Shown piece by piece: positions 2,676 through 17,498 of a stretch of DNA of 41,085 nt; position 1 is the first letter of the stretch, and each line of letters starts with the position of its first letter. Below the pieces are notes generated by a model. That model was not told the DNA's origin, made no database searches, and saw nothing but the letters and a program-made list of their open reading frames with translations. The DNA lies in NCBI GenBank assembly GCA_035517655.1, contig DATIYJ010000010.1, positions 1 to 41,085 of the forward strand. Direction: 5' to 3'. Position numbers and translations under genes: made by a program. The DNA comes from Nitrospiria bacterium (lineage in GTDB: Bacteria > Nitrospirota > Nitrospiria > JACQBZ01).

Positions 2676-2772
2676 CTCCTTTGATCAGAGCAAACCAGGG
2701 GAAACTCTGGGACGCAGAGCAACGGGGCTAAAGGAGAAACGTTCTCTCCCATGCCCGCCGAGCCGCCGAAGG
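2676..2772 (+). promoter_or_regulatory. GEMM-I cyclic-dinucleotide riboswitch aptamer, A20 (cGAMP-type)
   Basis: The conserved GEMM-I core is visible: GCAAACC (2690-2696), a hairpin capped by a GAAA tetraloop (2695-2710), GGGACGCAGAGC (2709-2720), a second helix GGGC...GCCC enclosing GGAGAA/TTCTCTCC, and the 3' strand GCCGAGCCGCCGAA (2759-2770 region). Against the Vibrio cholerae Vc2 aptamer the base before GCAAACC is G20, which contacts one ligand guanine; here it is A (2689). A20 is known to favour 3',3'-cGAMP and marks the GEMM-Ib switches of Geobacter, although A20 RNAs can also bind c-di-GMP. The 3' strand is shared with the terminator below, so ligand binding should turn the operon on. 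Confidence 0.9.
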
Positions 2773-2794
2773 AATTTCTTTGGCGGCTTTTTTT
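2761..2794 (+). terminator. Riboswitch expression platform: intrinsic terminator
   Basis: AGCCGCCGAAG pairs with CTTTGGCGGCT (the inner pairs include G-U) and is followed by seven T. The left arm is the 3' strand of the aptamer, so aptamer folding and terminator folding exclude each other. This is the layout of a ligand-ON transcriptional switch ahead of ATG 2812. Confidence 0.9.
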
Positions 2795-2811: not shown

Positions 2812-5268
2812 ATGCAGACCAAGAACAGAAAAAATCGCATCGTCGGATGGACGATCAGCGGGCTTTTTCTTTTATCTTTCGGTTACTATCTCACGTCGTG
2901 CGTCAGCTCCTCGAACCAGACCGTGTCCGAGAACGATCTGCCCGGGGTGGCGTTCGTCAAGCGGTCGGTCGACGCGATCGGCAATCCTCTGGATCCGATC
3001 GAATTCAAGGCCGGGGGCGATCTTTATACCCTGGTCCCGGGCACCCCGTCGGGAAAGCTGCGGAATATCACGGGAGACCTGACGAACGGCGCGGGGGACG
3101 TCTCCGACCCGGAAATCTTTCCGCAGACGCAGGGCGGGCCGTTCCGGCTGGTCTTCTCGATGAACAAGGGGAGCGGCGATCACTGGCACGTTTATGAAGT
3201 CCAGATCAATGAGGACGGGAGCCGGGCGACTGCGCCGGTCCAGCTGACCTGCGGCGATTCGGACGAACTCGCCCCCGCCTATCTTCCGGACGGCCGGATC
3301 GTCTTTGCCTCGAACCGTCCCGGCTATCTCGACGAATACGAACGGAGGAAATCGACCGTTCTTCATATTCTCGACCGAACCAAGACGGTCCAAGCCGGCC
3401 AGCCCTCCTGCGATTCCGGCGAGGTCGTCCAGATCTCGTTCAACCAGAGCCACGACCGGAACCCGATCGTCCTCCGGGACGGGACGATCCTCTACAGCCG
3501 TTGGGAGCATCTCGGAACGGTGAACAAGTTCGCCATTTTCTTCATGGAGCCGGACGGGACGGATACGTTCGTCAAATACGGCTCGCATTCCGGAGTGAAC
3601 ACCTTTCTCGATCTTCGCGAGCAGCTGGACGGCAGCCTCGTCGCCACCATGATGCCGCTGAGCGGAACCTACGAGGGCGGCGCCATCGGGCATCTCGATA
3701 TCGTCAACGAGGTCGACGATCCTAATACGGCCTCCCTCCAGCTGACCGGTTCCCAGGTCATCCCGGCCGACATGACGCCATCCAATTTCGGCCGGTACCA
3801 CAACGTCTATCCCATTCCGGACGGGAGTCTCCGCTACCTGACCTCCTACTCGACCGGAAAAGTGATCAACGACCCGAAGAATAAAATCGTGCAGGAACCC
3901 GATTACGGCCTCTGGATGCTGAACAACAGCGACGGGACGCTCAAACCGATCCTCGTTCCGGGTGACAACAGCCGCCAGGCCTATCTCGAGCCGATCCCGC
4001 TCATGCCGGTCCCGGCCGCGATGATCCCGACGGCCAAGCCGGAGAAGGCGGCCAATCGGAGTTCGTTGGGGACGCAAGGGGTGCTCGCGGCCGCGAGCGT
4101 CTACGACTCGGAAGCCAACCGGGCCCTCTCGAACGAGGTCCTGGGCGTGACCATTCCGCGCGACGCCAACGGCATCATCGATTTCAACGCCCTCTGCAGC
4201 GACCCGAGCCTGCAGGTCGTCAAACAGGTCCGGATCATCCAGGCGGTTCCGAGCCAGGCCGGGGTCGGAACGGAAGACATCGGACTATCCGAGTTCGAGC
4301 GCCAGAGGATCCTCGGCTATGCGCCGGTCGAGTGCGACGGCTCCTTCCGCGTCACCGTGCCGGCCGATACGAGCCTGACCCTCAATGTGGTCGACTCCCA
4401 AAGCCGTTCGTTCAAAGTGAAGGAAAACTGGCTGGCGGTCCGGCCCGGAGAGAATCGGACCTGTAACGGCTGTCATTCGCCGCGCCGGGGAACTCCCCAG
4501 CGGCTGGCGACCGATTCCATCGCGCTCAACCGGGCTCCCTCGACCCTGGTTCCGCCCGCGATTCCGGTGATCGCCTTCAATACGAACATCCAGCCGATCT
4601 TCACGGCCAAATGCGTTTCGTGTCATTCGATCTCGGATCAAAATTCTGACGGAGTCCTCGACAGCCCGGCGGGCGGGCTTGACCTGAGCTCGGATCAGGC
4701 CGGCACCGGGTTCCCGATCTCCTACTCGAGCCTTCTCGAAGACAATATGAACGGCTCGGACCTGGTCTTTCCCGGGGAATCGCAGCAGAGTTATCTCATC
4801 GAACGGGTTTTCGGCCAGGAAATCCGGGCCGTCCGTTCCCTGCCGGCCTCGGATCCGAACAATCACGCCCAGATGCTGACGCCGGATGAAAAACAGACCC
4901 TGGTCGAATGGATCGATCTGGGGGCGCAGTTCAGCAACGAAGATGTCGTCAGCAATCCGGGCCGTAAGCGGCTCGACACGACGGTCTTTACGTCCGCCAT
5001 CCAGCCGATTCTTCTCAACCGCTGCGGCCAATGCCATGTGGCCGGCGGCGACAGCAACTTTGTATTGACCGGGGACACCGAGGAGGGCGATTTCAACGCG
5101 ACGGCGGCCCGTGTGAACGTGACCGATCCGGCTCAAAGCATCCTGCTTTTGAAAGCGACGGGAACGATCCCGATGCTCGTGAACGGAACGGCGGTCGCGC
5201 CTCCGCCGCTTTCCCCTTCGGATCCGGACTATACGACGATACTCAACTGGATCACGGCGGCGCAGTGA
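2812..5268 (+). CDS. HzsA-like triheme c-type cytochrome lipoprotein
   Basis: This 818-residue protein starts with a hydrophobic segment ending in a lipobox (LTSC, Cys30), so it should be a lipid-anchored envelope protein. Residues about 60-400 look like a TolB/beta-propeller (repeated PDG and LPDG turns such as LAPAYLPDGRIVFASNRPGY). The C-terminal part has three heme-binding motifs: CNGCH (551-555), CVSCH (601-605) and CGQCH (738-742). Length and propeller-plus-cytochrome order resemble the hydrazine synthase alpha subunit (HzsA) and its many non-anammox relatives; hydrazine chemistry should not be assumed, since no HzsB/HzsC partners are present. Start: ATG 2812 with AGGAGG at 2801-2806. 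First gene of the riboswitch operon. Confidence 0.8.
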   Translation: MQTKNRKNRIVGWTISGLFLLSFGYYLTSCVSSSNQTVSENDLPGVAFVKRSVDAIGNPLDPIEFKAGGDLYTLVPGTPSGKLRNITGDLTNGAGDVSDPEIFPQTQGGPFRLVFSMNKGSGDHWHVYEVQINEDGSRATAPVQLTCGDSDELAPAYLPDGRIVFASNRPGYLDEYERRKSTVLHILDRTKTVQAGQPSCDSGEVVQISFNQSHDRNPIVLRDGTILYSRWEHLGTVNKFAIFFMEPDGTDTFVKYGSHSGVNTFLDLREQLDGSLVATMMPLSGTYEGGAIGHLDIVNEVDDPNTASLQLTGSQVIPADMTPSNFGRYHNVYPIPDGSLRYLTSYSTGKVINDPKNKIVQEPDYGLWMLNNSDGTLKPILVPGDNSRQAYLEPIPLMPVPAAMIPTAKPEKAANRSSLGTQGVLAAASVYDSEANRALSNEVLGVTIPRDANGIIDFNALCSDPSLQVVKQVRIIQAVPSQAGVGTEDIGLSEFERQRILGYAPVECDGSFRVTVPADTSLTLNVVDSQSRSFKVKENWLAVRPGENRTCNGCHSPRRGTPQRLATDSIALNRAPSTLVPPAIPVIAFNTNIQPIFTAKCVSCHSISDQNSDGVLDSPAGGLDLSSDQAGTGFPISYSSLLEDNMNGSDLVFPGESQQSYLIERVFGQEIRAVRSLPASDPNNHAQMLTPDEKQTLVEWIDLGAQFSNEDVVSNPGRKRLDTTVFTSAIQPILLNRCGQCHVAGGDSNFVLTGDTEEGDFNATAARVNVTDPAQSILLLKATGTIPMLVNGTAVAPPPLSPSDPDYTTILNWITAAQ

Positions 5269-5729
5269 CGCGGTGGCTCTTAACACAAATCGTCACGGTC
5301 TTGATGACGGGAATTTTCTTGTGGTCGGGCGGCGGATGCGGCTCGGTCGATCCCGGCGTGGACCCGACCATCGGAAGCCTGGACTACGACGCGTTCAAGG
5401 CCAACGTCCAGCCCGTCCTGGATCGGCGGGGCTGCTCGAACTCGAGATGCCACTACCGGAACAAGGCCAATCCCAGCAACGGCGGTCCCGGCGGAAGTTT
5501 CCGAATCTATAATTGCGCCGCCGATCCCTGCTCGGAGGATCAATCCCGTGCCAACTACGATTCGTCTTCGGGCATGACCGATATTGCCAATCCGGCCGGC
5601 AGCAAGATTCTGCTCAAGCCGCTGGCGGTGTCCGCCGGCGGCATTCAGCACCTGGGAGGGGATATCTTCCCGAATACGAGTGATCCGGATTATCTCACGA
5701 TCCTGAGTTGGATCCAGAGTCCGAATTGA
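5265..5729 (+). CDS. Small secreted cytochrome-like protein with a CX4CH motif
   Basis: The start is taken as GTG 5265, which overlaps the TGA of the cytochrome gene (GTGA), giving 154 residues. A hydrophobic N-terminus ends in a weak lipobox-like SGGGC near residue 25. The mature part begins FKANVQPVLDRRGC and carries Cys57-SNSR-Cys62-His63, a CX4CH heme motif in place of CXXCH. The Y..FKANVQPVLD lead-in and the closing DPDYLTILSWI match the cytochrome-type domains in the protein before it, where CXXCH follows the same lead-in. Covalent heme is therefore likely but unproven. It probably works with the HzsA-like protein by tight translational coupling. Confidence 0.65.
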   Translation: MTRWLLTQIVTVLMTGIFLWSGGGCGSVDPGVDPTIGSLDYDAFKANVQPVLDRRGCSNSRCHYRNKANPSNGGPGGSFRIYNCAADPCSEDQSRANYDSSSGMTDIANPAGSKILLKPLAVSAGGIQHLGGDIFPNTSDPDYLTILSWIQSPN

Positions 5730-5734
5730 GAACG

Positions 5735-6493
5735 ATGGGTCGAGAAACCCGGTCTCGATTTTTATGGATCCTCCTCTGCCTGGAGTTTTTTCTGACGGCC
5801 GGAGCCGCCTCGGGAGAGGAGACGGTCCAGAAAGCGTCGGTGGTCGAACCGTTCCTCGAGATCCACACCGGACCGGGCCGGAGCTATCCGGTTTTTTACA
5901 TCGCGGAACGGGGGGAGGAGATCCTCCTTCTGAAGCGCCAGACGGACTGGTACCGGGTCCGCCTGGCCAACGGAAAGGAAGGGTGGGTCCATCGGAACGA
6001 GATCGAGAAGACCCTGCTGGCCCAGGGACGGAAAAAGGGTTGGATGGACCGGATCTACGATGACCATATCGCCGGCCGGCTGGAGATGGGATGGGAGGCG
6101 GGGACGTTCGGAGGAGACGCGTCCCTCTTCCTCCGCATGAACTATCTTCTGACCGGCGCCCTGTCCATGGAGGGAGGCGCCGGTTTTGTCTCGAGCAACC
6201 TGGGCAGCACGGACCTCTTTCAGGCCGGGATGGTGATCACACCGTGGAGAACGCCCTGGTTCTCGCTGTCGGGGACCGTCGGTGGAGGGGTCGTCTATTC
6301 GACGCCGTCGAGTCTCCTCGTGGACGTCACCCGGAAGATGTTCCATGAAGCCCACGGCGGCATCGGGATTTCCATCCCTCTCGTCCGGAACCTGTTCGCC
6401 CGGGGCGATTTTCGAAATTACACCGTGTTCATGGGCCAGGCGCGGATCCGGGAGTTCCGGGAATACAGCGCGGGCCTCTCGTTTCGGTTTTAG
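5735..6493 (+). CDS. SH3-domain outer-membrane beta-barrel protein
   Basis: The 252-residue product has a signal peptide (hydrophobic residues about 7-24, ending AGAASG). A bacterial SH3 domain follows (about residues 33-88): FLEIHTGPGRSYPVF, then DWYRVRLANGKEGWV. After a short linker, alternating strands end in FREYSAGLSFRF, with a C-terminal Phe typical of outer-membrane barrels. SH3 domains of this kind bind peptidoglycan or peptides, so the protein may fix the barrel to the cell wall. ATG 5735 is preferred to the upstream in-frame start because it directly precedes the signal peptide and follows the previous stop by five bases. Confidence 0.65.
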   Translation: MGRETRSRFLWILLCLEFFLTAGAASGEETVQKASVVEPFLEIHTGPGRSYPVFYIAERGEEILLLKRQTDWYRVRLANGKEGWVHRNEIEKTLLAQGRKKGWMDRIYDDHIAGRLEMGWEAGTFGGDASLFLRMNYLLTGALSMEGGAGFVSSNLGSTDLFQAGMVITPWRTPWFSLSGTVGGGVVYSTPSSLLVDVTRKMFHEAHGGIGISIPLVRNLFARGDFRNYTVFMGQARIREFREYSAGLSFRF

Positions 6494-6504
6494 GAAGGGT
6501 GAGG

Positions 6505-7143
6505 ATGAAACGAATTTTATTCGCGGTCGGAACGCTCGGGTTTCTGCTCGGAGGAGCCCCGGCTTTGGCCCAGTCCGAAAATTTTCCGCGAAGCGACCAA
6601 CCGGCCGTCACGCCGCCGTCGGAGGAACACCCGCTGAAAGAGGCCAAGATCGACACCGAGTCGCTGGAAATGGGCCCCTATTACGGCCTGTACGCCATGG
6701 AAGGGTTCGGGACCTCCGGCGTCCTGGGTTTCCGGCTGGCCTATCATCTGACGGAGGATGTCTTCTTTGAAGGGACGTACGGGGAAACCCGGATTGAGCA
6801 GGAGACCTTCCGGCGCCTGACGGGGCGTCTTTTGGTGGCCGACGACAAAGTCACGACCTGGAACGCCGGCGCGGCCTACAATCTTTTTCCGGGTCAGCTC
6901 TTCCTGACCCGAAAGAAGACGCTGAACTCGACGATCTATCTGATCGGAGGCCTCGGTCAAACGCGGATCGATCGGCAGGCCCACTTCACGTTCGACGCCG
7001 GCACCGGCTACAAAATCTTTATCGTGGATTGGTTCGACCTTCGGATGGAGATGCGGACCCACATCCTTCAAACGGACCTGACCGGAAAGAAACAGATCAT
7101 GGACAACATCGAAGGGACCGCGGCCTTCGCGGTCTATTTCTAA
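6505..7143 (+). CDS. Outer-membrane beta-barrel protein (OMP_myx-like)
   Basis: The 212-residue protein has a clean signal peptide (hydrophobic core ending PALAQ) and then alternating aromatic strands: YYGLYAMEGFG, LGFRLAYHLTEDVFFEGTYG, WNAGAAYNLFP, DWFDLRMEMRTHILQTD, ending AAFAVYF. The pattern resembles the outer-membrane barrel family seen beside gliding-type and adventurous-motility gene sets of myxobacteria (OMP_myx_plus). ATG 6505 is chosen over GTG 6499 because GGAAGG at 6493-6498 is correctly spaced only for the ATG. Role in the operon: probably an outer-membrane pore or platform. Confidence 0.65.
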   Translation: MKRILFAVGTLGFLLGGAPALAQSENFPRSDQPAVTPPSEEHPLKEAKIDTESLEMGPYYGLYAMEGFGTSGVLGFRLAYHLTEDVFFEGTYGETRIEQETFRRLTGRLLVADDKVTTWNAGAAYNLFPGQLFLTRKKTLNSTIYLIGGLGQTRIDRQAHFTFDAGTGYKIFIVDWFDLRMEMRTHILQTDLTGKKQIMDNIEGTAAFAVYF

Positions 7144-7153
7144 GAGGTGCGTC

Positions 7154-7654
7154 ATGAACAAAAGGGGAAAGATCGTTTCGTTTCTGTTGGCGTTGGTGTT
7201 TGTCGCCGCGGGTCCGGCCCTTGGGGCCGCGCCGGGGGACAGGGCGCCCGACTTCACGGGCAAAACCCTCGGGGGGGGAAACGTCAAGCTCAGCGAACTG
7301 AGGGGCCGCATCGTGCTGCTTAATTTTTGGGGGACGTGGTGCGCCCCTTGTAAAGAGGAACTTCCCTACTTCAACCGTCTTTACGTGAAATATAAGGGGG
7401 TCGGCCTCGAGATTCTGGCCGTGAACGTGGACAAGGTGACGGCGCAGGCCGTGGGGATGAGCGGGGCCTTGGGTCTGACGTTCCCGGTCGTCCCGGACCC
7501 CTCCGGCCATCTTTTCGATCTCTATCAAATCCGGAGCATGCCGACCACGTTCGTGGTCGGAAAGGACGGGATGATCCGCTTCGTCCACTGGGGGTTCGGG
7601 CCCGACGATCCGGCCCGGTATGATTCTCAGATCAAAAGCCTCTTGAAGGAGTGA
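7154..7654 (+). CDS. TlpA/ResA-type periplasmic thioredoxin
   Basis: Signal peptide (residues 1-24, LGAAPG), then a thioredoxin fold with GDRAPDFTGKTLGG, LRGRIVLLNFWGTWCAPC (active-site Cys63 and Cys66), and the cis-proline loop SMPTTFVV. At 166 residues it has the size of ResA/TlpA proteins, membrane-associated reductases that keep heme-binding or other cysteines reduced. Here it could reduce CXXCH motifs of the cytochromes or the CGC tail of the next gene's product; that is inferred from position. AGAGG about ten bases before ATG 7154 serves as ribosome binding site. Confidence 0.88.
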   Translation: MNKRGKIVSFLLALVFVAAGPALGAAPGDRAPDFTGKTLGGGNVKLSELRGRIVLLNFWGTWCAPCKEELPYFNRLYVKYKGVGLEILAVNVDKVTAQAVGMSGALGLTFPVVPDPSGHLFDLYQIRSMPTTFVVGKDGMIRFVHWGFGPDDPARYDSQIKSLLKE

Positions 7655-7659
7655 CGGAA

Positions 7660-7881
7660 ATGAGACGGAGGATGTTGGTTTTCGTGTGCCTAGCGGCGGT
7701 CTGGGCCGGGATGACCGGGTGCGCCCCGGTTCAGCCGTGGCAGAGGGAATACCTGGCCGACGAGACGATGCAGTTCGATCCCGACCCGTTGAAGGCCGAA
7801 TGGCAACAGCATGTGCGGGAGGTCTTCGAAGGGGGGCGGGGCGGGTTCAACGGGACCGGCGGGGGTTGCGGTTGCAGGTGA
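7660..7881 (+). CDS. DUF4266 small lipoprotein with a GGGCGC tail
   Basis: The 73-residue product has a lipobox MTGC (Cys21), then PVQPWQREYLADETMQFD, the hallmark of DUF4266, and ends GTGGGCGCR. DUF4266 lipoproteins are known beside DUF3570, a TlpA-type thioredoxin and ApbE, the order seen here; their function is not established. The closing Gly-Cys-Gly-Cys could bind metal or heme or be modified, which is speculation. ATG 7660 is preferred to GTG 7651 because AAGGAG (7646-7651) has proper spacing only for the ATG. Confidence 0.8.
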   Translation: MRRRMLVFVCLAAVWAGMTGCAPVQPWQREYLADETMQFDPDPLKAEWQQHVREVFEGGRGGFNGTGGGCGCR

Positions 7882-9041
7882 CCCGCGCGAAGGGCGGGCG
7901 GGCCTGCGGCCCCGGACGACGATTCGGGTCCGTTCTCATCCTGGCGTTGGTCTCCATCGCCGTCGGGCCGTCCTGGGCGGTCGAGCCCGCCCAGGATGAA
8001 GTCGAGACCGGATATAATTATTACAATGGAGCCGGAGTCACCGTTCAGGGACCGGCCGTGATCGTGAAGAAGAATGTATTAGACGGAGCGTCGTTAAAAG
8101 CGGGTTACAGCGTCGATATGGTCAGCTCGGCCTCCATCGATGTGGTGACCCAGGCCAGCCCCTATAGAGAGACGCGACAGGAATACAGCCTCGGAACGGA
8201 CATCCTGCGCGGCGACACCCTCATCGGGATGGATTACATCGACAGCCGGGAATCGGACTACACGTCCGATACGCTGTCGATCGGAGCGGCGCACGACCTC
8301 TTTGATAAAAATGTGACGTTCAATATGAAGGTGGCCCGCTCCTGGAATCTGGTCGGCCGGAACAACGATCCCTCGTTCGGCTGGAAGGATTTCAACCGGA
8401 CGATGTATTCGACCGGGATCACGCAATCCTTGACGCCCCGCTGGCTGATCCAGTTCAATTACGAACTCACCGCCGACGCGGGCCTCATCAACAACCCGTA
8501 TCGCAGCGCCATGACCTTGGACGGAGCGTTGGTGCCTGAAAATTACCCGGATGCCCGCACCGGACAGGCCTGGGCCATCCGGACCAGTTACGGGTTTCCC
8601 TCCGGCTCATCCGCGATCGGGCCGGGCGGCCTGGGGGGTTCCGTTCAAATGGATTACCGCTACTACCGGGATACCTTTAATGTTGTATCCAATACCGCCA
8701 AGGTCACGTTGCAACGCTACTTCGCTCCGGACTGGCTTGGGGGAATTTTCTACCAGTATTACCGTCAGGGGGCGGCCAGTTTTTACGGAGACCGCCTGCC
8801 CACCAATCAGTTATACAAGGCTCGGGACAGGGACCTCTCGGAATATCAGGATCACTGGATCGGGTTGACGCTCAAATTTAAACTCAAGCAGACGACCTGG
8901 GGCTTGATCAGCAATCCCTACGTCCAAATCGACAGCAGTTTGATGATCTATCATTATGACGACTTTACCGATCCGCGCACCGACGCGCTTTATTCCCAGA
9001 GGGCTTATGTCGGCCATACGAGTTTCGGTTTTAATTATTAG
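7878..9041 (+). CDS. DUF3570 outer-membrane protein
   Basis: GTG 7878 overlaps the stop of the DUF4266 gene (GTGA), giving 387 residues with a signal peptide ending WAVEPA. The mature N-terminus has the DUF3570 signature: YNYYNGAGVTVQGPAVIVKKN, then YSVDMVSSASIDVV and TQASPYRETRQEYS. The rest is regular beta-strands with many Tyr and Trp, ending TSFGFNY, as in a large outer-membrane barrel. DUF3570 is repeatedly found with ApbE and DUF4266. The conserved DMVSSAS (residues 80-86) resembles the Dxx[ST]GA[ST] site that ApbE flavinylates, so this barrel could be an ApbE substrate; this is a hypothesis. Confidence 0.8.
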   Translation: MTRAKGGRACGPGRRFGSVLILALVSIAVGPSWAVEPAQDEVETGYNYYNGAGVTVQGPAVIVKKNVLDGASLKAGYSVDMVSSASIDVVTQASPYRETRQEYSLGTDILRGDTLIGMDYIDSRESDYTSDTLSIGAAHDLFDKNVTFNMKVARSWNLVGRNNDPSFGWKDFNRTMYSTGITQSLTPRWLIQFNYELTADAGLINNPYRSAMTLDGALVPENYPDARTGQAWAIRTSYGFPSGSSAIGPGGLGGSVQMDYRYYRDTFNVVSNTAKVTLQRYFAPDWLGGIFYQYYRQGAASFYGDRLPTNQLYKARDRDLSEYQDHWIGLTLKFKLKQTTWGLISNPYVQIDSSLMIYHYDDFTDPRTDALYSQRAYVGHTSFGFNY

Positions 9042-10038
9042 CGTTCTCGTCCTGGATGGGTTGCTTTGTGTCCCGCCGAGCCACGGCGAAGAGGCTCCGA
9101 GCTACCTGGTCAGCGAGAATCGGGCCCTCATGGGAACCGAGGTGATCATCAAGGCGGTGGGGGACGACCGTCCCGGAATGGAGCGGGCCGTCCAGGAGGC
9201 CTTCGACGAAATTTCACGGCTGGAACGGATGATGAGCAACTTTATCCCGACCAGCGAGCTCTCGCGCATCAATCAGCAGGCCGGGAAGGCGCCGGTTCCG
9301 GTCAGCCGGGAGCTTTTTTCGGTGATCCAAAAGTCGTTGCATTTCTCCGAACTCACCGGAGGGACGTTCGACATTTCGTTCGCCTCCGTCGGCAAACTTT
9401 GGGATTTCCGCGCGGGAATCCTGCCGTCGCCGGAGGCGATCGCGCGGCAACTTCCCTTCGTCGATTATCGGAAGATCCGGCTGAACGAAAAGGACTCGAG
9501 CGTGTTCCTTCCCTATCCCGAGATGGAGATCGGCCTGGGGGGCATCGGGAAGGGCTACGCCGTCGACCGGGCCATGGCGGTCCTGACGAAGCACGGAATC
9601 CGCGACGCGGTCGTCATGGCGGGGGGGGACATGATGGTCAAGGGGAAGAAAGGGAAGGATCTCTGGCGGGTCGGGCTTCGCGATCCGGACGACAAGAATA
9701 AGATCCTGGCGGTCCTGCCGTTGGAGGATCAGGCCGTCTCGACCTCGGGGGATTACGAGCGGTTCTTCATCAAGGACGGCGTCCGCTACCATCATATTAT
9801 CGACACCCGGACGGGCTACCCGGCCAGGCTCTGCCGGAGCGTGACGCTTCTGGCCAAGGACGCGACCACCACCGACGGCCTCACCAAAGGGGTTTTCATC
9901 CTCGGTCCCGAGCGGGGGATGGCGCTCATCGAGCGGATCGGGGGGGTGGACGCGATCATCATCGACGCCCGGGGAAAGATGCACCTTTCTTCCGGGTTGA
10001 CCTCTCTGAAATTGGAAGGAGCGAAAAACGGGGGATGA
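9007..10038 (+). CDS. apbE: FAD:protein FMN transferase ApbE
   Basis: The 343-residue protein has a hydrophobic N-terminal signal and the ApbE motifs in order: LMGTEVIIK, FDISFASVGKLWDF, LGGIGKGYAVDRA, VVMAGGDMMVKG, STSGDYERFF, HHIIDTRTGYPA and TTTDGLTKGVFILG. The TDGLTK Asp and Thr and the DTRTG region bind Mg and FAD. ApbE works in the periplasm and attaches FMN from FAD covalently to Thr or Ser of target proteins. ATG 9007 overlaps the DUF3570 gene by 35 bases and has AGAGGG just upstream. Its presence means some envelope protein, perhaps in this operon, carries covalent flavin. Confidence 0.93.
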   Translation: MSAIRVSVLIISVLVLDGLLCVPPSHGEEAPSYLVSENRALMGTEVIIKAVGDDRPGMERAVQEAFDEISRLERMMSNFIPTSELSRINQQAGKAPVPVSRELFSVIQKSLHFSELTGGTFDISFASVGKLWDFRAGILPSPEAIARQLPFVDYRKIRLNEKDSSVFLPYPEMEIGLGGIGKGYAVDRAMAVLTKHGIRDAVVMAGGDMMVKGKKGKDLWRVGLRDPDDKNKILAVLPLEDQAVSTSGDYERFFIKDGVRYHHIIDTRTGYPARLCRSVTLLAKDATTTDGLTKGVFILGPERGMALIERIGGVDAIIIDARGKMHLSSGLTSLKLEGAKNGG

Positions 10039-10583
10039 GCATGCGCAGCCGAATCGTAATCCTTATTCTTTTTGTCCTTTCTCTTTTTCCATGTCGTGCT
10101 TCCCGGGCCGAACCGGCGAATGCGCCTCAACAGCAAATGGAGAACCTGGACGGCCAGATTCAAGACCTCAAGGAAAAGATCCTGAACCTGAACACGCTCC
10201 TCTTCCGGCTCCAGGAGGATCTTCTTTTTCCCGAGGACTCCTCCGTCGTGGTCTTCCTGGCGGTGGAAGGAGGGAATTACTTCGCGCTGGATTCGGTCAA
10301 GCTGAACCTGGACAACACGATGGTCACAAGTTACCTTTACACGGACCGGGAAGTCGGCGCCCTGAGAAAGGGAGGGATTCAACGGCTCTACATGGGAAAC
10401 GTGAAGTCCGGCGATCATCAACTGGTGGCCGTTTTCACGGGGAAAGGCCCGCAGGAAAAGGATTACAAACGGGCGGAAACGGTTCAATTCACCAAGAAGG
10501 ACGGCGCCGCCTTTATCAAGATCATCATACGGGACAGTTCGGAGAAAGAGCAGCCTGAGTTTGCCTATGAAACATGGAACTGA
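10035..10583 (+). CDS. Periplasmic coiled-coil protein of unknown function
   Basis: ATG 10035 overlaps the ApbE stop (ATGA). The 182-residue product has a signal peptide (residues about 6-25, ending SRAEP), a short coiled coil (ENLDGQIQDLKEKILNLN, residues about 36-60) and then a beta-rich domain (SSVVVFLAVEGGNYFALDSV, SGDHQLVAVFTGKG). I do not recognise a named family. Comparable proteins follow ApbE or precede TPR genes in other envelope clusters, as I recall; I cannot verify this. It probably assembles with the TPR proteins that follow. Confidence 0.7.
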   Translation: MSMRSRIVILILFVLSLFPCRASRAEPANAPQQQMENLDGQIQDLKEKILNLNTLLFRLQEDLLFPEDSSVVVFLAVEGGNYFALDSVKLNLDNTMVTSYLYTDREVGALRKGGIQRLYMGNVKSGDHQLVAVFTGKGPQEKDYKRAETVQFTKKDGAAFIKIIIRDSSEKEQPEFAYETWN

Positions 10584-12465
10584 AAAGGGCGGGAGGGCCA
10601 TACGCCGGACCGGCCGGCTTTTGCTGATCATCCCGTGGGCTCTTCTGCTCGGTTTTTCCGCCCCGCCGGCGCGGGCGGCCGAGCCTTCGATCGACATCGA
10701 AAAAAGGGCGGAGACCCTGCAACGGGAGGCCTATTACGATTTCTTCCTGGGAGACTACCTCACGTCGGCGACCCGTCTGAAGCTGCTTGAACAGTCGGCC
10801 GAAAAAGATGGAAAGGTATTGAACGACACCCGTCTTCTCCTGGGGGGGCTTTACATCGCCTGGGGCATGTATCGTCCGGCCGCCGCTCTGTTCGACCGAT
10901 GGGTCGAACAGTTTCCCCCGGGGAGCAGCCGGAACCAGCTCCTGCTCCTGATCGAACGGCTGCAGTATCAACGCGCGCTCTATCAGTCCGCGATCGACAC
11001 CTTTAAACGGCTATCGCCGGACTCGGCCTTCGCGTTGATGGACCAGGCCTGTTACCTGGCCGGTATGAGCGATTACCTCCAGGGCTCTGTTCCGGAAGGG
11101 ATCGGCGTTCTGGAGTCCGTTCCGCCATCCAGCGGATACTTTCCCTTCGCCCAGTTGGCCGTGGCCCAGTCCTATGTCCAACTGAAAGATTTCGAAAAGT
11201 CGATCGCGCTCCTGAAAAAACTCATCGCGACCGATCATCGTGGAGATCCCGTCCTCGGAGCCTTCGCCGAGAAAACCCGTCTGATCCTGGGGCTGCTCCT
11301 GATCGAGTTGGGAAGGTTTCAGGAGGCCCGTCCGGTCCTCGCGTCCATTCCGTCGGCGAGTCCGTTTTATCCCGACGCCCTTTTCGGGGCGGGATGGGCC
11401 GATTTCGATGCGGGACGTTATTCGGAGGCCCTTCCTTATTTTCAGGAATTGTCGGAAGCATATCCGGATCATGTCTACGCTTTGGAAGGACTGAATACGA
11501 TCGGGGGGAGTTATCGGAAGCTGGGCGCGTTTGCGAAGGCCCTTCAAAGTTATGGAAAGGCCCTTGATGTTTATGAGCGGAAAGGGAAGGAGATCCATGA
11601 GATTAGGACGTTGATCCAGGACCGGGAACGGCTGGCCGATTGGCTCGGCCGACCGGAGGACCCTCAAGAAGACCGCTTGATCCCTTTTCTCGACGAAGAC
11701 CTGCTTCGCTTCCGGATCGACCGGTACCGGGAGCTTTCTTCTCTCGCGGCCTATCTCGACCGGAAGGCGGCGGATATGGGCGTTTTTGAGATCATGGTCG
11801 ATCACCGGGAAGAGGTCTTCCGGGGGCACCTCCCGACTCTCCGCGGTTTTCTGGACAACGATCCGGTCAAGGCGCTCCAGGAACAAGAACGGCTCCTTCA
11901 GGCCCGTCTTCAAGAGGCGACGCGAACGGAACGGGTGGAGGCCCTCGCAACGACCAAAGAGAGGGAGAAACTCGATCAATTGGCCCGGGCGCAATCGCAA
12001 GGGCGGGAGCTGCTGGAAGCGGTCGGGCGGATGGGGGCCGCTTCGCCGGATCTCCAGGAGCTGAAGGGACAGATCGAAGCGGCCAACCGTCGACTGGCCC
12101 TGTTTCGAGGCGAACTCCTCTGGAGGGTGGTCACCGAGGCCCCCGGTCGGATCGATGATCTTCAAAGAAGCGAGGCACAACTCCGGGAAGGTTTGGATGC
12201 GCTGTCCGGGCGGCGGGCGCGATTGACGGCTTCGGCCCCGACCCTGGAAAACGATCTCGAACGGTTTCGCGAAAGAATACGCACGGCCCGTCAATCCCTG
12301 CTGGAAGAAAAAGAAACGGCGCTCGATCTTCAAAGAAAACTCCTTCCCCCTTTGCAGGTTCTGCTATTGCAGGCCCTTGATAAACAACAGGGGCGGATCG
12401 AGCATCTGGCCGCCGTGGCGAAACTGAGCCGGATCCAGATCCTGGATCTAAAGAGTCGCCCATGA
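10567..12465 (+). CDS. Secreted TPR and coiled-coil envelope protein (632 aa)
   Basis: ATG 10567 lies inside the end of the previous gene (17-base overlap) and begins a signal peptide (RLLLIIPWALLLGFSAPPARAAE). Residues about 40-370 form TPR-like helix pairs (for example PYFQELSEAYPDHVYALEG and GAFAKALQSYGKALDVY). Residues about 430-620 are a long charged coiled coil (QEQERLLQARLQEATRTER and later). Such TPR plus coiled-coil proteins act as periplasmic scaffolds in gliding-type (Glt) and Tol-like machines, but the family here is not one I can name. A scaffold role is inferred from architecture. Confidence 0.75.
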   Translation: MKHGTEKGGRAIRRTGRLLLIIPWALLLGFSAPPARAAEPSIDIEKRAETLQREAYYDFFLGDYLTSATRLKLLEQSAEKDGKVLNDTRLLLGGLYIAWGMYRPAAALFDRWVEQFPPGSSRNQLLLLIERLQYQRALYQSAIDTFKRLSPDSAFALMDQACYLAGMSDYLQGSVPEGIGVLESVPPSSGYFPFAQLAVAQSYVQLKDFEKSIALLKKLIATDHRGDPVLGAFAEKTRLILGLLLIELGRFQEARPVLASIPSASPFYPDALFGAGWADFDAGRYSEALPYFQELSEAYPDHVYALEGLNTIGGSYRKLGAFAKALQSYGKALDVYERKGKEIHEIRTLIQDRERLADWLGRPEDPQEDRLIPFLDEDLLRFRIDRYRELSSLAAYLDRKAADMGVFEIMVDHREEVFRGHLPTLRGFLDNDPVKALQEQERLLQARLQEATRTERVEALATTKEREKLDQLARAQSQGRELLEAVGRMGAASPDLQELKGQIEAANRRLALFRGELLWRVVTEAPGRIDDLQRSEAQLREGLDALSGRRARLTASAPTLENDLERFRERIRTARQSLLEEKETALDLQRKLLPPLQVLLLQALDKQQGRIEHLAAVAKLSRIQILDLKSRP

Positions 12466-15269
12466 AACCGATCGCGATCGGGCTTTGCCTTTTATTGCTC
12501 GGCGGCTGCAGCCTGGGCCGGGATTCCCGACGCCCCGAAGCGCCCCCGTCGTTGACGACGAAGGAGATCGAAGCGCTTCGCCAAGAGCCGCTGGTCGCTC
12601 GGAAGGAAGCCGTGGTGAAGGCGTACGAGGATTTTCTAAAGCAGTATGATCGGGTCGACCCCTCTTTAACCTCACAAGCCCTGAAGCGCCTGGGGGATCT
12701 CTATCTCGAAACTTCGAATCAGCGCTTCCAAAAGGCGATGGAAGCCTATGAAGCGCATCCGGAGGGGCCGCCTCCGCTGGTGGATGATCGAAAGGCGATC
12801 GCGACCTACGAAGAGCTTCTTCGTTCCGATCCGGGATATCCGGAAAACGACGAGGTCCTCTACGCCCTTTCGCGCGCCTATGCCGAGACCGGAAACCGGG
12901 AGATGGCCGTCGGATCGCTCGAACGTCTTCTGAAGGACTATCCGCGGAACCGGCATCGACAGGAGGCCTCGTTTCGCTTGGGCGAGTATTATTTTGATCA
13001 ACGTTTATACGAAAAAGCCGCGGAAGCCTATGAGCAGTCCCTGGCCTTGAAAGACCCCTTTTTCCTCGACAAGGCGCGGTACAAGCTCGGTTGGACGTAC
13101 TTCAACATGAAACAATACCCGCGAGCGATTGATCATTTTCTCCGGTTGGTCAATCAGAAGGTGACGGCGGAAGGGGACATCCCCTTCGAGCAAGGCTCCT
13201 TGGTCTGGGAAGCGATGACCTATGTGGCGACCTCGTTTCGGATTCTCGGGGGAGCGGCTCCTCTCTCGGCGTACTTCCAAAAAAACGGATCTCTTCCCTA
13301 TGAGAAAGATCTCTACCTGATGGTCGGAAACCAATCTCTGTCGGACGGAGATCCTCAGTCGGCGGTCGACACGTACCGGACGTTCATCCGTCAACATCCG
13401 CTGCATCCGATGGCGCCGATTTTTTTATCGTATATCATCGAGGTCTATGAGAAGGAAAAGGACCCGCCGTCGGCCGAAAAGGCCAGGGTCCAGTTGGTCG
13501 AAACGTATTCCTCGCAGAGCCCATGGTACCGGGCCAACGATGAAGCGGCCCGCTCCCGTTCCCGGCCGATCGTGCAGTCGGAGCTCTATCGCCTCGCCCT
13601 CTCGGCCCATGCCCGTGCGCAGGCCGGGAAAAACCAGGAAGATTACCGTGAGGCGGCGGGATGGTACCGGCAATTTCTCGCCGAGTTTCCCCACCAGAAG
13701 GAATCGCGGGATGTCCACCTCTTTCTGGCCGAGACCCTTTTCGCGTTGGGCGAGTTCGCCCAAGCCGGAGAGGAATATGAGACGGCCGCCTACGGCTATC
13801 CGGAGAAAGGCGCGAATTCGAAGGCCGCCTATGACGCGGTCGTGGCCTATCAGAAGGTCGATACAGAAAAGGGCAGCGACAAAGTGATCGATCTTTCCAA
13901 GCGCTTTGCCGCGATTTTTCCTCAGGACCCCAAGACCCCGGCGCTTTTGCTCAAAGCCGGAGAGATTCTCTTTGAGGCGAAGCGCTATGACGAAACCCTC
14001 GGCGTCCTTAAAGACTTTCCGGGCCGTTATCCCAAGGAGGAAGGGGCGACGACGGCGCAAAAACTCGTTGCGCACAGCCTGATGCAGCTGGGACGTTTTG
14101 AAGAGGCCCGTCAGGCCTACCGTCAGACGCTGGCCCTGCTTCCCCCGTCGGATACGAAGGGGCGCCAGGAGATCGCCGATCTGTTGGCCGCGGCCGTTTA
14201 TAAACAGGCTGAAAGTCGCCAGCGGGAAAACCGGCCGGAGGAAGCGGTCCGTCTCTATGAGGATGTGGCCGAGGAGGCTCCTCGGAGCGAACTGGCCCCC
14301 CAGGCCCTTTTTGAAGCCGGCCAGATCCGTGAGGGAATGAAGCAAATCAAAAACGCGATCGCAATGTATCAGAGGCTGATTCTCCTCTCTCCCGATTCCA
14401 CGCTTTCGGGAAAAGCGCAGGTGCAGATCGGTTTGCTGTATGAACAAGAGGGGGAATGGGTCCCATCCGCGGATGCCTACGTCTCCGCCGCCGGAAATAT
14501 CCGGGATGAGAGCCTTGTTTCCCATCTCCTTTTTACGGCCGGTCTCTATTACGAAAAGAGCGGCCGATGGGAAGAGTGTTATAACGCCTTCTCAAGGTTC
14601 ACCGGGCGGTTTCCACAAAACCCGGACGCGGCGGAAGCGCTTTTCAAAATGGCCAACGCCCGACAAAAACAACAAAAGACCCGGGAAGCGCTGCAACTTT
14701 TTGAGAAAGTGGAGCAGCAATTCCCCGCAACGCCGTTTGCCGCGGAGGCTCTGTTTCAGATCGGCGAGGAGGCTTACCAGAATTTTAAAGCCGTACGGTT
14801 GCGGGAACCTTTGAACAAAAACCTGAAAAAAAAGGCCAAGGCCATGGAAAGGGCGGTCGCCCTCTATACCAAGGCGATCCAGACCCGGTATTCCGATGTG
14901 GTCACGGCTTCTTCTTACCGACTGGGGGAGATTTTTGAAAATTTCAAGTCGTCTCTTCTCGATGCGGAACCCCCTCGAAACCTGACCAAGGACGAGCAGG
15001 AGGAGTACCGCTTCCAACTGGAGGAGAAGGCTTTTCCTTTTGAGGAGAAGGCGGTGGAAGCCTATTTCAGCAACGTGCGCCGGATCCGGGACGAGAACAG
15101 TCCTTACAACGAATGGATCAAAAAAAGTTTCAACCGCCTGGCCGAGCTGAGGCCCGCGCTGTACCGCCGGCCGGAAAGGACGGAACGGATTGTCTCCGTC
15201 GTCGATCAACGTCAGTTATCGACTCAAACCCCTGAAGACTCCCGCGGGAGAATGGTGCAGGCCCGATGA
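12462..15269 (+). CDS. Large TPR lipoprotein (935 aa)
   Basis: ATG 12462 overlaps the previous stop (ATGA). A lipobox LGGCS (Cys16) marks it as a lipoprotein. Nearly the whole chain is TPR-type helical repeat, with many copies of the A.Y......P....A...LGE pattern (for example HRQEASFRLGEYYFDQ, YEKAAEAYEQSLAL and PYNEWIKKSFNRLAELRP near the end). It resembles the large TPR lipoproteins of myxobacterial gliding loci (GltE-like) and BamD/CpoB-like scaffolds, though length and context fit the former better. It likely lines the inner leaflet of the outer membrane and organises the complex. No enzyme motif is visible. Confidence 0.8.
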   Translation: MKPIAIGLCLLLLGGCSLGRDSRRPEAPPSLTTKEIEALRQEPLVARKEAVVKAYEDFLKQYDRVDPSLTSQALKRLGDLYLETSNQRFQKAMEAYEAHPEGPPPLVDDRKAIATYEELLRSDPGYPENDEVLYALSRAYAETGNREMAVGSLERLLKDYPRNRHRQEASFRLGEYYFDQRLYEKAAEAYEQSLALKDPFFLDKARYKLGWTYFNMKQYPRAIDHFLRLVNQKVTAEGDIPFEQGSLVWEAMTYVATSFRILGGAAPLSAYFQKNGSLPYEKDLYLMVGNQSLSDGDPQSAVDTYRTFIRQHPLHPMAPIFLSYIIEVYEKEKDPPSAEKARVQLVETYSSQSPWYRANDEAARSRSRPIVQSELYRLALSAHARAQAGKNQEDYREAAGWYRQFLAEFPHQKESRDVHLFLAETLFALGEFAQAGEEYETAAYGYPEKGANSKAAYDAVVAYQKVDTEKGSDKVIDLSKRFAAIFPQDPKTPALLLKAGEILFEAKRYDETLGVLKDFPGRYPKEEGATTAQKLVAHSLMQLGRFEEARQAYRQTLALLPPSDTKGRQEIADLLAAAVYKQAESRQRENRPEEAVRLYEDVAEEAPRSELAPQALFEAGQIREGMKQIKNAIAMYQRLILLSPDSTLSGKAQVQIGLLYEQEGEWVPSADAYVSAAGNIRDESLVSHLLFTAGLYYEKSGRWEECYNAFSRFTGRFPQNPDAAEALFKMANARQKQQKTREALQLFEKVEQQFPATPFAAEALFQIGEEAYQNFKAVRLREPLNKNLKKKAKAMERAVALYTKAIQTRYSDVVTASSYRLGEIFENFKSSLLDAEPPRNLTKDEQEEYRFQLEEKAFPFEEKAVEAYFSNVRRIRDENSPYNEWIKKSFNRLAELRPALYRRPERTERIVSVVDQRQLSTQTPEDSRGRMVQAR

Positions 15270-15910
15270 TGCGACGCTTCGGTCCGATCAAAGGATTTCT
15301 TTTTCTCGTCCTTTTGATGTCATCCGTCGGATGCATGCGGACTTCCGCGATCGTCGCTCGTCCGGAAGCTCCTGCACCGGCGGCTCCGGAAGCTCGGAAT
15401 GATTTGTCCCGTCGCACCGAACCGGGCGGGCCCCTTCTCCAGTTCAAGCAAGGGGTGCAGCTTCTCGAGAACGGACAGAACGACGAAGCGCGGCATTTGT
15501 TTGAAAAACTCCGGGATACCTATCCAAAGATGAGTGTTATTTATAAAGATCTGGGTGTGACCTATAAACGTCTCGGACTCATTCCGGAGGCCGTGGCCTC
15601 CTATCAACGGGCCCTCGAAATTGAAAGAGGCGACGCGGAGGTTTATTACAATCTGGCCATCGCCCTGCGCGAGCAGGGGGAGTTCCGCAAAGCGGAGGAG
15701 GCCTACAAAACCGCTCTTGCGATCTCTCCGGATTTTATGGATGCTCATTACAACCTGGCCGTTCTTTATGACCTCTATCTCAACGAGCCGAACGAGGCCA
15801 TCCGCCACTACCAACGGTTTCTGGAATTGGGAGGCGGGGATCCCAAAGAAATTCAGATTTGGATCGCGGCTCTTCAGAAAAGAACCGACGAATCGAAGAG
15901 GTCGCCATGA
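15266..15910 (+). CDS. TPR lipoprotein (214 aa)
   Basis: ATG 15266 overlaps the previous stop (ATGA). The lipobox is SSVGC (Cys23). Residues about 65-200 contain four TPR units, clearest in VYKRLGLIPEAVASYQRALE, VYYNLAIALREQGEFRKAEE and AHYNLAVLYDLYLNEPNEAI. It is PilF/Pgb1-like in size and fold, so a pilotin-type role is an alternative to a structural one. Overlaps on both sides place it firmly in the riboswitch operon. Confidence 0.8.
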   Translation: MMRRFGPIKGFLFLVLLMSSVGCMRTSAIVARPEAPAPAAPEARNDLSRRTEPGGPLLQFKQGVQLLENGQNDEARHLFEKLRDTYPKMSVIYKDLGVTYKRLGLIPEAVASYQRALEIERGDAEVYYNLAIALREQGEFRKAEEAYKTALAISPDFMDAHYNLAVLYDLYLNEPNEAIRHYQRFLELGGGDPKEIQIWIAALQKRTDESKRSP

Positions 15911-16263
15911 GACCGCTTCTATGGAGACGGGTTTGCGCTCTGATCGGAATTTTCCTGATCGGGGCCACGGTCTTCCCGGCCGATCTTCCCTCCAAAGAAG
16001 CTGCGGGATCTGAAAAAAAGACCCCGGGACAGTTTAAGGAGGAAGGATCAAAGGACGTCGAACAGTTGCTCATGCAGGGAACCGAAATCCAGGGGACGGT
16101 TGAAAAACCTCATGTGGTATATGTTATCCCTTGGAAGGACCTCCCGTCCGGGGTGGAAGAAGAGGTTCCACTGCACCGAAGCTTCAGGAACGAGATCCTG
16201 GAACCGGTGGACCGGGAGCAGTTTCAGCGTCAATGGGAAAGTTTCTCACGCAATCCCAAATAA
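15907..16263 (+). CDS. Small exported protein of unknown function (118 aa)
   Basis: ATG 15907 overlaps the TPR gene's stop (ATGA). The product has a signal peptide or membrane anchor (VCALIGIFLIGATVFPA, residues 9-25), a Lys-rich linker, and a conserved-looking segment: VEQLLMQGTEIQGTVEKPHVVYVIPW, followed by LHRSFRNEILEPVDREQFQRQW. The strand VEKPHVVYVIPWKD occurs in small proteins beside AgmX/TonB-like genes, as I recall, but I cannot name the family. Position suggests a partner of the AgmX-domain protein. Confidence 0.65.
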   Translation: MRPLLWRRVCALIGIFLIGATVFPADLPSKEAAGSEKKTPGQFKEEGSKDVEQLLMQGTEIQGTVEKPHVVYVIPWKDLPSGVEEEVPLHRSFRNEILEPVDREQFQRQWESFSRNPK

Positions 16264-16277
16264 GGACGATTGAAGGG

Positions 16278-17237
16278 ATGTCTTATTTTCAAGATTCGAA
16301 TGAGGCGCGTTTCAGAAAAATCCTGTTGCGGTGCGTCGTCTTTTATTTTTCATGCGCGGCGGCCATAACGCTGATCCCGTTCCCTCATGCGGAGAAGCCC
16401 GATTTCAAGAACCTGCCCAGCCGTGTGGCGAAGTTGATTCTGAAATCTCCCGCTCCGCCGCCCCCCAGCCCGGAAGTGGTTAAACCGAATGACAAAACGT
16501 CTCCCGAGAAATCAAACCCCGAAGAAGGCGGACCCAAACCGACAAGCAAGGCTCCTCCCATCAGAAGGCAAATTGTCATGAGAAGCGGTCTCTTGGGTTC
16601 TTTGAACAAGGGAGAAACCGGAAGGACATTGAGCGCGCTGGTCGAAGACCGGAAATTAGATCAAGCCCTCTCAGCCGCGAACCTGATTGCCGCTCCGACG
16701 GCACGGTCAAGGCGCTCTTCGATCAAGAACGTCGTGACGACAAAGACGGACCTTGCCGATCAGAAGATCGCGCGTATCGGCGGACTTAAAGAAGAGGAAC
16801 GGGTGAAGCTTAAGAAAGGGAACGAGGTTGCGATGCTTCCTTTGCAAGAAGGCCCCGGGGGCGGCGGCGGGTCGGGTCGTGGTGGAGACGGGTCCGGAAA
16901 CGGGGTATCGATCCGTCTAACGGGCGGCGGCTCCGGGACGGGGAATGCCTCTGTTAATTATGACGCCATCGCGCGCGTGGTCGAACAGTACAAGGGCGGC
17001 CTCATCTATCTATATAACAAAGAGCTCCGACTCAACCCCACCTTGAAGGGGACGATTACGGTGGAGTTTTCCATTGACGGGAGCGGAAAAGTCATTGAAA
17101 CCCGTGTCGTGACGAGTACCATGGATTATGCGCCTCTTGAGAATGCGCTGGCCGGTCGGATCAAGATGTGGAAGTTTCCCCACCTCTACGACGGGGTCAT
17201 TGTCGTGACCTATCCTTTCGTTTTTTTCCCGGTGTAA
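16278..17237 (+). CDS. AgmX/PglI C-terminal domain protein, TonB-like
   Basis: ATG 16278 is 14 bases after the previous stop and precedes one membrane helix (ILLRCVVFYFSCAAAITLIP, residues 15-34). A Pro-rich stretch (SPAPPPPSPEVV) and a Gly-rich linker (about residues 193-222) lead to the C-terminal AgmX/PglI domain: LRLNPTLKGTITVEFSIDG, GKVIETRVVTSTM, then KMWKFPHL and VTYPFVFFPV. The layout is that of TonB and of GltJ/AgmX proteins, which carry proton-motive force across the periplasm with ExbB/ExbD (TolQ/TolR) motors. No such motor genes lie in this window. The family's usual cysteines in this domain are absent. Last gene of the operon. Confidence 0.82.
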   Translation: MSYFQDSNEARFRKILLRCVVFYFSCAAAITLIPFPHAEKPDFKNLPSRVAKLILKSPAPPPPSPEVVKPNDKTSPEKSNPEEGGPKPTSKAPPIRRQIVMRSGLLGSLNKGETGRTLSALVEDRKLDQALSAANLIAAPTARSRRSSIKNVVTTKTDLADQKIARIGGLKEEERVKLKKGNEVAMLPLQEGPGGGGGSGRGGDGSGNGVSIRLTGGGSGTGNASVNYDAIARVVEQYKGGLIYLYNKELRLNPTLKGTITVEFSIDGSGKVIETRVVTSTMDYAPLENALAGRIKMWKFPHLYDGVIVVTYPFVFFPV

Positions 17238-17397: not shown

Positions 17398-17498
17398 GGA
17401 GATCCGATGGGATCTCTCACGCGTAGACCCCGCGTGACCCTTGCGTGCCCAACGTGAAGGCCCAGGTTCTCTTCGGAGAGCTTGGGCCTCTCGTTTTG
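17398..17498 (+). ncRNA. Candidate small structured RNA or attenuator with a 16-codon ORF
   Basis: The predicted transcript of about 100 bases has three successive hairpins: GAGATCC/GGATCTC (17399-17416), TCACGCG/CGCGTGA (17417-17437) and the terminator stem. It also contains a short frame, ATG 17407 to TGA 17457 (MGSLTRRPRVTLACPT), with GGAG five bases before the ATG; this site and start lie inside the first hairpin. It may be a free small RNA, a leader peptide of an attenuator, or the far terminator of the large operon. No known RNA family was recognised. Confidence 0.4.
17460..17498 (+). terminator. Intrinsic terminator with TTCG loop
   Basis: GCCCAGGTTCTC (17460-17471) pairs with GAGAGCTTGGGC (17476-17487), with two G-U pairs and a TTCG tetraloop, followed by a T-rich tract. 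The next promoter starts two bases later, so the DJ-1 gene is transcribed separately. Confidence 0.8.

Follow-up and report, generated by a model that had tools for sequence, protein, structure and literature searches.

The contig DATIYJ010000010.1 of a Nitrospiria bacterium (assembly GCA_035517655.1), analysed here over positions 1 to 41,085 (the window), carries an operon of 14 open reading frames (ORFs), g01 to g14, on the plus strand at positions 2812-17237, preceded by a riboswitch (Table 1). A first-pass annotation of the bare sequence had described these genes as same-strand neighbours that overlap or lie 5-14 bases apart, and had proposed that they form a single heme, flavin and trans-envelope unit under a second-messenger switch. 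The 13 junctions bear out this layout: seven are 4-base overlaps, two are overlaps of 17 and 35 bases, and four are gaps of 5, 5, 10 and 14 bases. The start codons were picked by hand, and some are GTG. Gene families were assigned with Pfam and NCBIfam, and the riboswitch with Rfam; the domain calls agree with the family content that had been proposed for the 14 genes.

Table 1. Features of the operon and its leader, and candidate cyclic GMP-AMP (cGAMP) synthases encoded elsewhere in the host genome. TM, transmembrane; TPR, tetratricopeptide repeat; Ig, immunoglobulin.
Feature	Position	Strand	Basis
GEMM-I (RF01051) aptamer, A at ligand-specificity position	2679..2770	+	65 bits, E 1.2e-10
Intrinsic terminator, 5' stem shared with aptamer 3' end	2760..2789	+	13 pairs then T run, -21.4 kcal/mol
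g01, triheme HzsA-like lipoprotein	2812..5268	+	PF18582 1.2e-18, PD40
g02, small lipoprotein with CX4CH heme-type motif	5265..5729	+	motif conservation; Pfam none
g03, SH3 domain and C-terminal outer-membrane barrel	5735..6493	+	PF08239 9e-10; TIGR04565 weak
g04, OMP_myx_plus outer-membrane barrel	6499..7143	+	TIGR04565 119 bits, cut-off 60
g05, TlpA/ResA-like exported thiol oxidoreductase	7154..7654	+	PF00578 (AhpC-TSA) 6e-29; WCAPC motif
g06, DUF4266 lipoprotein, C-terminal CXC	7651..7881	+	PF14086 2.4e-16
g07, DUF3570 protein, candidate flavinylation target	7878..9041	+	PF12094 1.3e-26
g08, ApbE flavin transferase	9007..10038	+	PF02424 6.7e-86
g09, exported coiled coil and Ig/transthyretin-like beta domain; core-type marker	10035..10583	+	A1/A2 family
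g10, exported TPR and coiled-coil protein	10567..12465	+	TPR_2 3e-15
g11, large TPR lipoprotein	12462..15269	+	TPR_6 7e-36; lipobox LGGC
g12, small TPR lipoprotein	15266..15910	+	TPR_1 2e-22; lipobox SVGC
g13, small exported core protein	15907..16263	+	positional conservation; no family match
g14, TonB-like AgmX/PglI protein: one TM helix, linker, C-terminal domain	16278..17237	+	NF033768 82 bits, cut-off 40
Candidate cGAMP synthase (Hypr-type GGDEF)	contig 22, 9015-9491 (L142)		Ser
Candidate cGAMP synthase (Hypr-type GGDEF)	contig 44, 31163-31630 (L151)		Ser

No internal promoter stands out in the operon, where promoter-like sites number 6 against 4.1 +/- 1.7 in shuffled sequences; the top plus-strand site lies 5' of the riboswitch, at 2562-2589. 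Similarly, no internal terminator stands out, the strongest plus-strand stems being the riboswitch terminator and a stem that follows the operon at 17458-17489. Comparison with a congener (G163) revealed purifying selection on all 14 genes, with ratios of nonsynonymous to synonymous substitution rates (dN/dS) of 0.10-0.37, and 0.20 for g14.

The redox half of the operon, g01 to g08, opens with a protein whose predicted structure matches the hydrazine synthase (HZS) alpha subunit HzsA (PDB 5c2v; Z 34.2, root-mean-square deviation 3.0, 585 residues), the next match of its propeller being TolB (Z 25.9). It is built from a propeller, an HZS middle domain, two HZS-type hemes and an extra C-terminal heme (three CXXCH motifs in all). 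Two CXXCH sites align with the HzsA heme sites; two CXXCH and the lipobox cysteine are invariant among 29 sequences, in which the third heme is limited to the Nitrospirota and one further locus (L076). The g01 protein scores 98 bits where the equivalog demands 800, and was therefore rejected as hydrazine synthase alpha proper; since HzsB and HzsC are also absent from the operon, we do not claim hydrazine synthesis. Lipobox-like cysteines are found in g01, g02, g06, g11 and g12. The CX4CH motif of g02 is retained in all eight homologues found, and the g03 homologue of Alteromonas reaches 43 bits with TIGR04565. The g06 protein ends in GGGCGCR, a conserved tail that contains the CXC end of DUF4266 proteins. 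In g07, Ser86 is invariant among 48 sequences and aligns with the SGAS/TGAT acceptor of canonical DUF3570 proteins; the acceptor motif reads SSAS in this operon and SGAS in most Alteromonadaceae. ApbE flavinylates DUF3570 at [S/T]GA[S/T], and a DsbD-family protein is often the electron donor in the published DUF3570/ApbE clusters (PMC8238504). There is no DsbD-type gene within the operon, and two DsbD-type proteins are encoded elsewhere in the host genome. A genome of the same family (G296) lacks the genes that follow here and has TlpA-DUF4266-DUF3570-ApbE together with a CcdA-like gene. A plasmid search for DUF3570 gave one distant match.

The second half, g09 to g14, is of a known kind, and resembles in its make-up the Agl-Glt core complex (group B of Luciano). 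This complex, consisting of TolQ, two TolR, a TonB-like AgmX/PglI and three TPR proteins, has been described in Gammaproteobacteria, Geobacter and Fibrobacter, and the Myxococcus gliding (Agl-Glt) and sporulation (Nfs) machines descend from it (Luciano 2011, PMC3169522). In Myxococcus it is the driver of gliding and of spore-coat transport (PMC3169522, PMC3858216); in non-gliders its function is unknown, and it includes one additional gene without Myxococcus homologues (PMC3169522), which could correspond to g09 or g13. The proposal that the locus is an undescribed system therefore needs to be restricted to the combination of its two halves. The g14 protein has the AgmX/PglI C-terminal domain, although it reaches just 75 of the 650 bits of the GltG equivalog, and g11 exceeds the YbgF cut-off (162 vs 90 bits). 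Against GltE, g12 scores 37 bits and its paralogue on contig 24 of the host genome 50 bits (cut-off 225); the contig 24 paralogue of g10 scores 17 bits against GltC (cut-off 450), and the TPR proteins cross-match. The structure predicted for g09 (predicted local distance difference test score 88) has its best PDB match at Z 9, to a common Ig/transthyretin-like sandwich only.

The ExbB/ExbD motor genes are absent between g13 and g14 both in this operon and in G163. At this position, six Nitrospirota relatives (G290, G312, G159, G119, G347 (L048) and G354 (L050)), which belong to families f21 and f19, have an ExbB/TolQ-like gene and two ExbD/TolR-like genes, and ExbB-ExbD-ExbD also precede AgmX in most Alteromonadaceae. 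As judged from these gene orders, the complete form of the operon is one of 17 genes; the unit of 14 is conserved, but lacks three genes at the locus in this genus. For this reason we file the operon as a derivative of the Agl-Glt core rather than as an intact member. Contig 24 of the host genome (L022 4751-13575) carries a paralogous cluster, TPR1-TPR2-TPR3-small-ExbB-ExbD-ExbD-AgmX, whose AgmX is 51% identical to g14 over the C-terminal quarter, and it may be guessed that g14 borrows this motor in trans. This cluster is followed, within L022 4751-16014, by two triheme c7-type cytochromes on the opposite strand, a possible second link between core and heme genes. The missing ExbB and ExbD genes, which set the operon apart from its relatives, could mean that this copy is no longer a working machine. 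However, none of the 14 frames is broken in either of two species, the C-terminal domain and TM region of g14 align with those of AgmX from motor-bearing relatives, and each of the two species has an intact riboswitch. Given the dN/dS values we reject decay, which appears highly improbable.

It should be noted that the operon is not unique to this genome, a possibility ruled out by its relatives in Nitrospirota and Gammaproteobacteria. These were found with a g09 profile search; the named-genome set comprises the best 80 of 244 loci and leans to the subtype of this operon, so that the architecture counts are not natural frequencies, and the genes of the relatives were called by a simple ORF script, a few of the listed ORFs being spurious. 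The operon recurs in other families of the class Nitrospiria and in named genomes, the hosts being Nitrospirota metagenome-assembled genomes, including a Manganitrophaceae bacterium, and the Gammaproteobacteria Alteromonas, Aliiglaciecola, Glaciecola, Paraglaciecola and Thiogranum. In the Nitrospirota the order g01 to g14 is identical; in the Alteromonadaceae g02 and ApbE are absent from the operon, and the remaining order is kept. The position of g13 is conserved in the Nitrospirota and in many Gammaproteobacteria. Besides this operon, there are 44 loci in which g01 and g07 adjoin g09 on one strand. As far as the compared sequences go, AgmX, the TPR proteins, the coiled-coil/Ig protein and the barrels are thus kept in one operon with the heme, TlpA, DUF4266, DUF3570 and ApbE genes, which establishes the anatomy and conservation of the operon. 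The first-pass view of one unit assembled from two known sub-blocks is upheld by the shared order in two phyla. Homologous loci are not always split at a joint, as the refuting condition set by that annotation would demand; in these 44 loci the blocks stay together. Its view of a fusion holds only in part, because other lineages swap the cargo at the joint after ApbE and the two blocks also occur apart.

This modularity follows a pattern. In a quick tree of the core, built from g09, g11 and g12 of 52 loci, the core-adjacent gene content follows the core clade almost perfectly, requiring 4 changes (the minimum) compared with 27.9 in shuffles, as expected if core and cargo function together. The clades comprise the core alone, a PSD2/LamG-ApbE type, a permuted type with TlpA, and the full redox set twice, the Nitrospirota and Alteromonadaceae operons falling into two separate clades. 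In the PSD2/LamG clade the cargo in front of the core consists of a PSD2-type monoheme protein, a LamG diheme protein, an unassigned 541-residue protein with a twin-arginine-like start and ApbE, and the HzsA-like gene is divergent; its loci are all gammaproteobacterial (L053, L055, L058, L066, L073, L077, L078, L087 and L096). The permuted form, TPR2-TPR3-small-motor-AgmX-TlpA-g09-g10, lies among housekeeping genes (L094, L101, L109, L110, L112, L118 and L122). LamG and PSD2 heme genes also stand, divergently, beside the operon in Alteromonadaceae; a search with the Alteromonas PSD2-type cytochrome, run without a positive control, found no match in the host genome. On these gene maps, the redox partners turn up repeatedly, beside several clades of the core and in arrangements that vary. 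The distances of the HzsA-like and TPR2 proteins covary (r 0.94, 35 Alteromonadaceae), although vertical descent alone also gives covariation.

Two other explanations of the linkage bear on this pattern. The core may be an assembly or secretion device that exports, matures or surface-exposes heme and flavin lipoproteins, with TlpA, DUF4266 and ApbE as maturation factors and a role that ends at delivery. ApbE and TlpA are indeed maturation-type enzymes, several operon products are lipoproteins and the surface cargo differs by core clade, but the best-known relatives of the core act by moving polymer and surface complexes, not by secreting proteins, and one clade has no linked cargo; we regard this explanation as unlikely, yet deserving of attention. 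Alternatively, the redox module may share its transcript with a surface-contact machine for the sake of timing alone, the two being needed on surfaces alike and mechanically unrelated. This would agree with the occurrence of each block by itself, the core without redox genes in f7 genomes and the TlpA-DUF4266-DUF3570-ApbE set, with its CcdA-like gene, in G296. The interleaved order kept in two phyla, and a distinct core clade for each type of cargo, argue against co-regulation only, which we hold to be improbable.

Rfam detects one RF01051 aptamer in the 5' leader, well above the gathering score of 35 bits. The alignment has A where the consensus has an unpaired G, at model position 11. We take this position to be position 20 of the literature, numbered after G20 of Vc2, which is likewise an unpaired G preceding the P1b stem. 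Replacing A by G at position 20 converts a cGAMP switch into a cyclic di-GMP (c-di-GMP) switch (PMC6456294). The leader is therefore predicted, from this base, to be a GEMM-Ib-type switch with cGAMP as its ligand, and a plain c-di-GMP switch was set aside. The 3' end of the aptamer forms the 5' arm of the terminator, so that ligand binding should permit read-through, as in an ON switch. The same layout is found in L039 and L040, and L008 and L009 have a hairpin, GCCGCC...GGCGGCT7, 3' of the aptamer. The A base is shared by the aptamers of G163, G290, G053 and G058. In G163 and G290 the aptamer again lies 5' of g01; in G053 and, as a tandem pair, in G058, both of another class and without g01 to g08, it lies directly 5' of g09. 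Thus, the switch tracks the head of the operon irrespective of the redox genes. At L009 19281-19560, where the redox block is missing from the genome, the tandem aptamers have A at both specificity bases and lie 5' of the core. The proposed second-messenger control is accordingly retained in the form of a cyclic-dinucleotide aptamer, with the qualifications that its base is of the cGAMP and not the c-di-GMP type and that it is present in some loci only.

The host genome contains three further GEMM-I copies, two of the A type and one of the G type. One A20-type switch (contig 29, 8502-8621, minus strand; L002/L010) has the same terminator layout and stands in front of a gene whose 488-residue product has two CXXCH motifs. 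The other (contig 27, 16711-16828, plus strand; L003/L011) lies ahead of genes for three exported proteins, two of them large, secreted and fibronectin-like, and the G-type (c-di-GMP-type) copy lies on contig 12 (56173-56272, minus strand; L004). A serine at the Hypr position (N...GHxxGS) is found in 2 of the 29 GGDEF matches in the genome (Table 1), and by the Ser348 rule serine marks the Hypr GGDEF enzymes that make cGAMP (PMC6456294). Together with the A20 switches, these two proteins make a cGAMP circuit plausible in this organism. In Geobacter, cGAMP governs metal respiration and its switches control outer-membrane cytochromes (PMC6456294), and gliding of Bdellovibrio is under cGAMP control (PMC9140294); by analogy, these roles would fit the two halves of the operon.

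The Geobacter example is also in keeping with a rival view, in which the barrels and heme proteins make up an outer-membrane route for extracellular electron transfer, the core serves as no more than a static scaffold, and the host genus has shed the motor as unneeded. The absence of the motor at the locus in this operon and G163 while AgmX stays under selection, and the second A20 switch of the host genome in front of a diheme protein, are in line with such a conduit. Only two HZS-type hemes are universal, however, and CX4CH is missing in Alteromonadaceae, which makes a continuous heme wire unlikely, and the motor is retained in most lineages; we therefore view a conduit as rather improbable.

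To the reading that we prefer, as the simplest in which every part finds a use, we give about even chances, namely that the operon encodes a specialised, proton-driven envelope machine of the Agl-Glt/Nfs type, joined to a redox module of the cell surface and switched by cGAMP. The ExbB-ExbD-ExbD motor would draw on the proton gradient to move AgmX, in the host genus presumably a motor supplied in trans, such as that of contig 24. The motion would pass to the TPR and barrel parts. These may keep the heme and flavin proteins at the outer membrane or across it, and the motion would load, position or cycle those proteins. ApbE would flavinylate DUF3570, here at SSAS, and electrons might reach DUF3570 via the thiols of TlpA and DUF4266 or via hemes. 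Binding of cGAMP to the leader RNA would turn transcription on. The transport of electrons or mechanical energy that the first-pass annotation had suggested likewise stays at the level of inference. Several observations weigh against this reading. The operon is known here from sequence alone; the likeness of g10 to g12 to gltC, gltD and gltE is one of composition, with NCBIfam matches to GltC and GltE below their cut-offs; and the motor genes are missing at the locus in the host genus. The clade in which the core stands alone indicates that redox handling is not the general job of the core. In addition, SSAS departs from the motif shown to be flavinylated, three or four encoded hemes are few for long-range conduction, and the aptamer was not found in f19, in genus g51 of f21 or in the Gammaproteobacteria searched. 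More doubtful is the wider idea of a class of proton-driven envelope machines, in which an Agl-Glt-type motor moves, loads or energises a heme/flavin surface complex with cGAMP as the shared ON signal.

Both halves of the operon are of known kinds. What appears to be undescribed is that they are combined in a conserved way, how far this combination has spread, and that it carries a cGAMP-type switch; a literature search that left out most subscription journals and the supplementary gene maps of Luciano 2011 found no paper joining the HzsA-like/flavinylation set with the Agl-Glt core. Although many non-gliders have been known since 2011 to possess this core, its function there is unknown, and the operon gives one core clade its first concrete cargo. 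The question thereby becomes testable in cultured Alteromonadaceae. If our view is true, one class of DUF3570/ApbE flavinylation systems would gain an envelope location, and two cGAMP outputs, metal respiration and gliding, would be linked via one type of machine.

The operon resembles several known systems in part. With HzsA (PDB 5c2v), g01 shares the whole fold, including propeller and middle domain, and two CXXCH in matching places; it differs in its 18-23% identity, its lipoprotein nature, its extra C-terminal heme and the lack of HzsB and HzsC beside it. The clusters of Meheust 2021 (PMC8238504) have the same four adjoining families, the DUF4266 CXC tail and the DUF3570 acceptor serine; in contrast to these clusters, the operon has SSAS, no DsbD/CcdA, a thioredoxin-like gene of PF00578 (g05) instead of PF13899, and a fusion with HzsA-like, barrel and core genes. 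The Geobacter GEMM-Ib switches (PMC6456294) share with the leader RF01051 with A20, downstream heme-protein genes, the terminator layout and a Hypr-type GGDEF in the genome, whereas here the host is a member of the Nitrospirota, the switch leads a motor-core operon and the ligand is predicted from the base. As in Tol-Pal, the relatives have a TolQ/TolR-like motor and the operon has a TonB-like transducer and a YbgF-like TPR protein, but no Pal was seen in the operon, and the match of the g01 propeller to TolB reflects a shared fold only. In the Agl-Glt core (PMC3169522), too, a single operon encodes a TonB-like AgmX/PglI together with three exported TPR proteins, with TolQ and two TolR-like genes as in most relatives of this operon; that core has extra genes absent in Myxococcus and has spread over Gammaproteobacteria by transfer. 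What distinguishes the present operon is its Nitrospirota host, the eight heme, flavin and barrel genes in front, the cyclic-dinucleotide switch and the lack of a motor at the locus. Finally, the Nfs spore-coat machine of Myxococcus (PMC3858216), while directed at coat polysaccharide and reported without redox genes, is likewise a specialised descendant of the core that has its own partner proteins.

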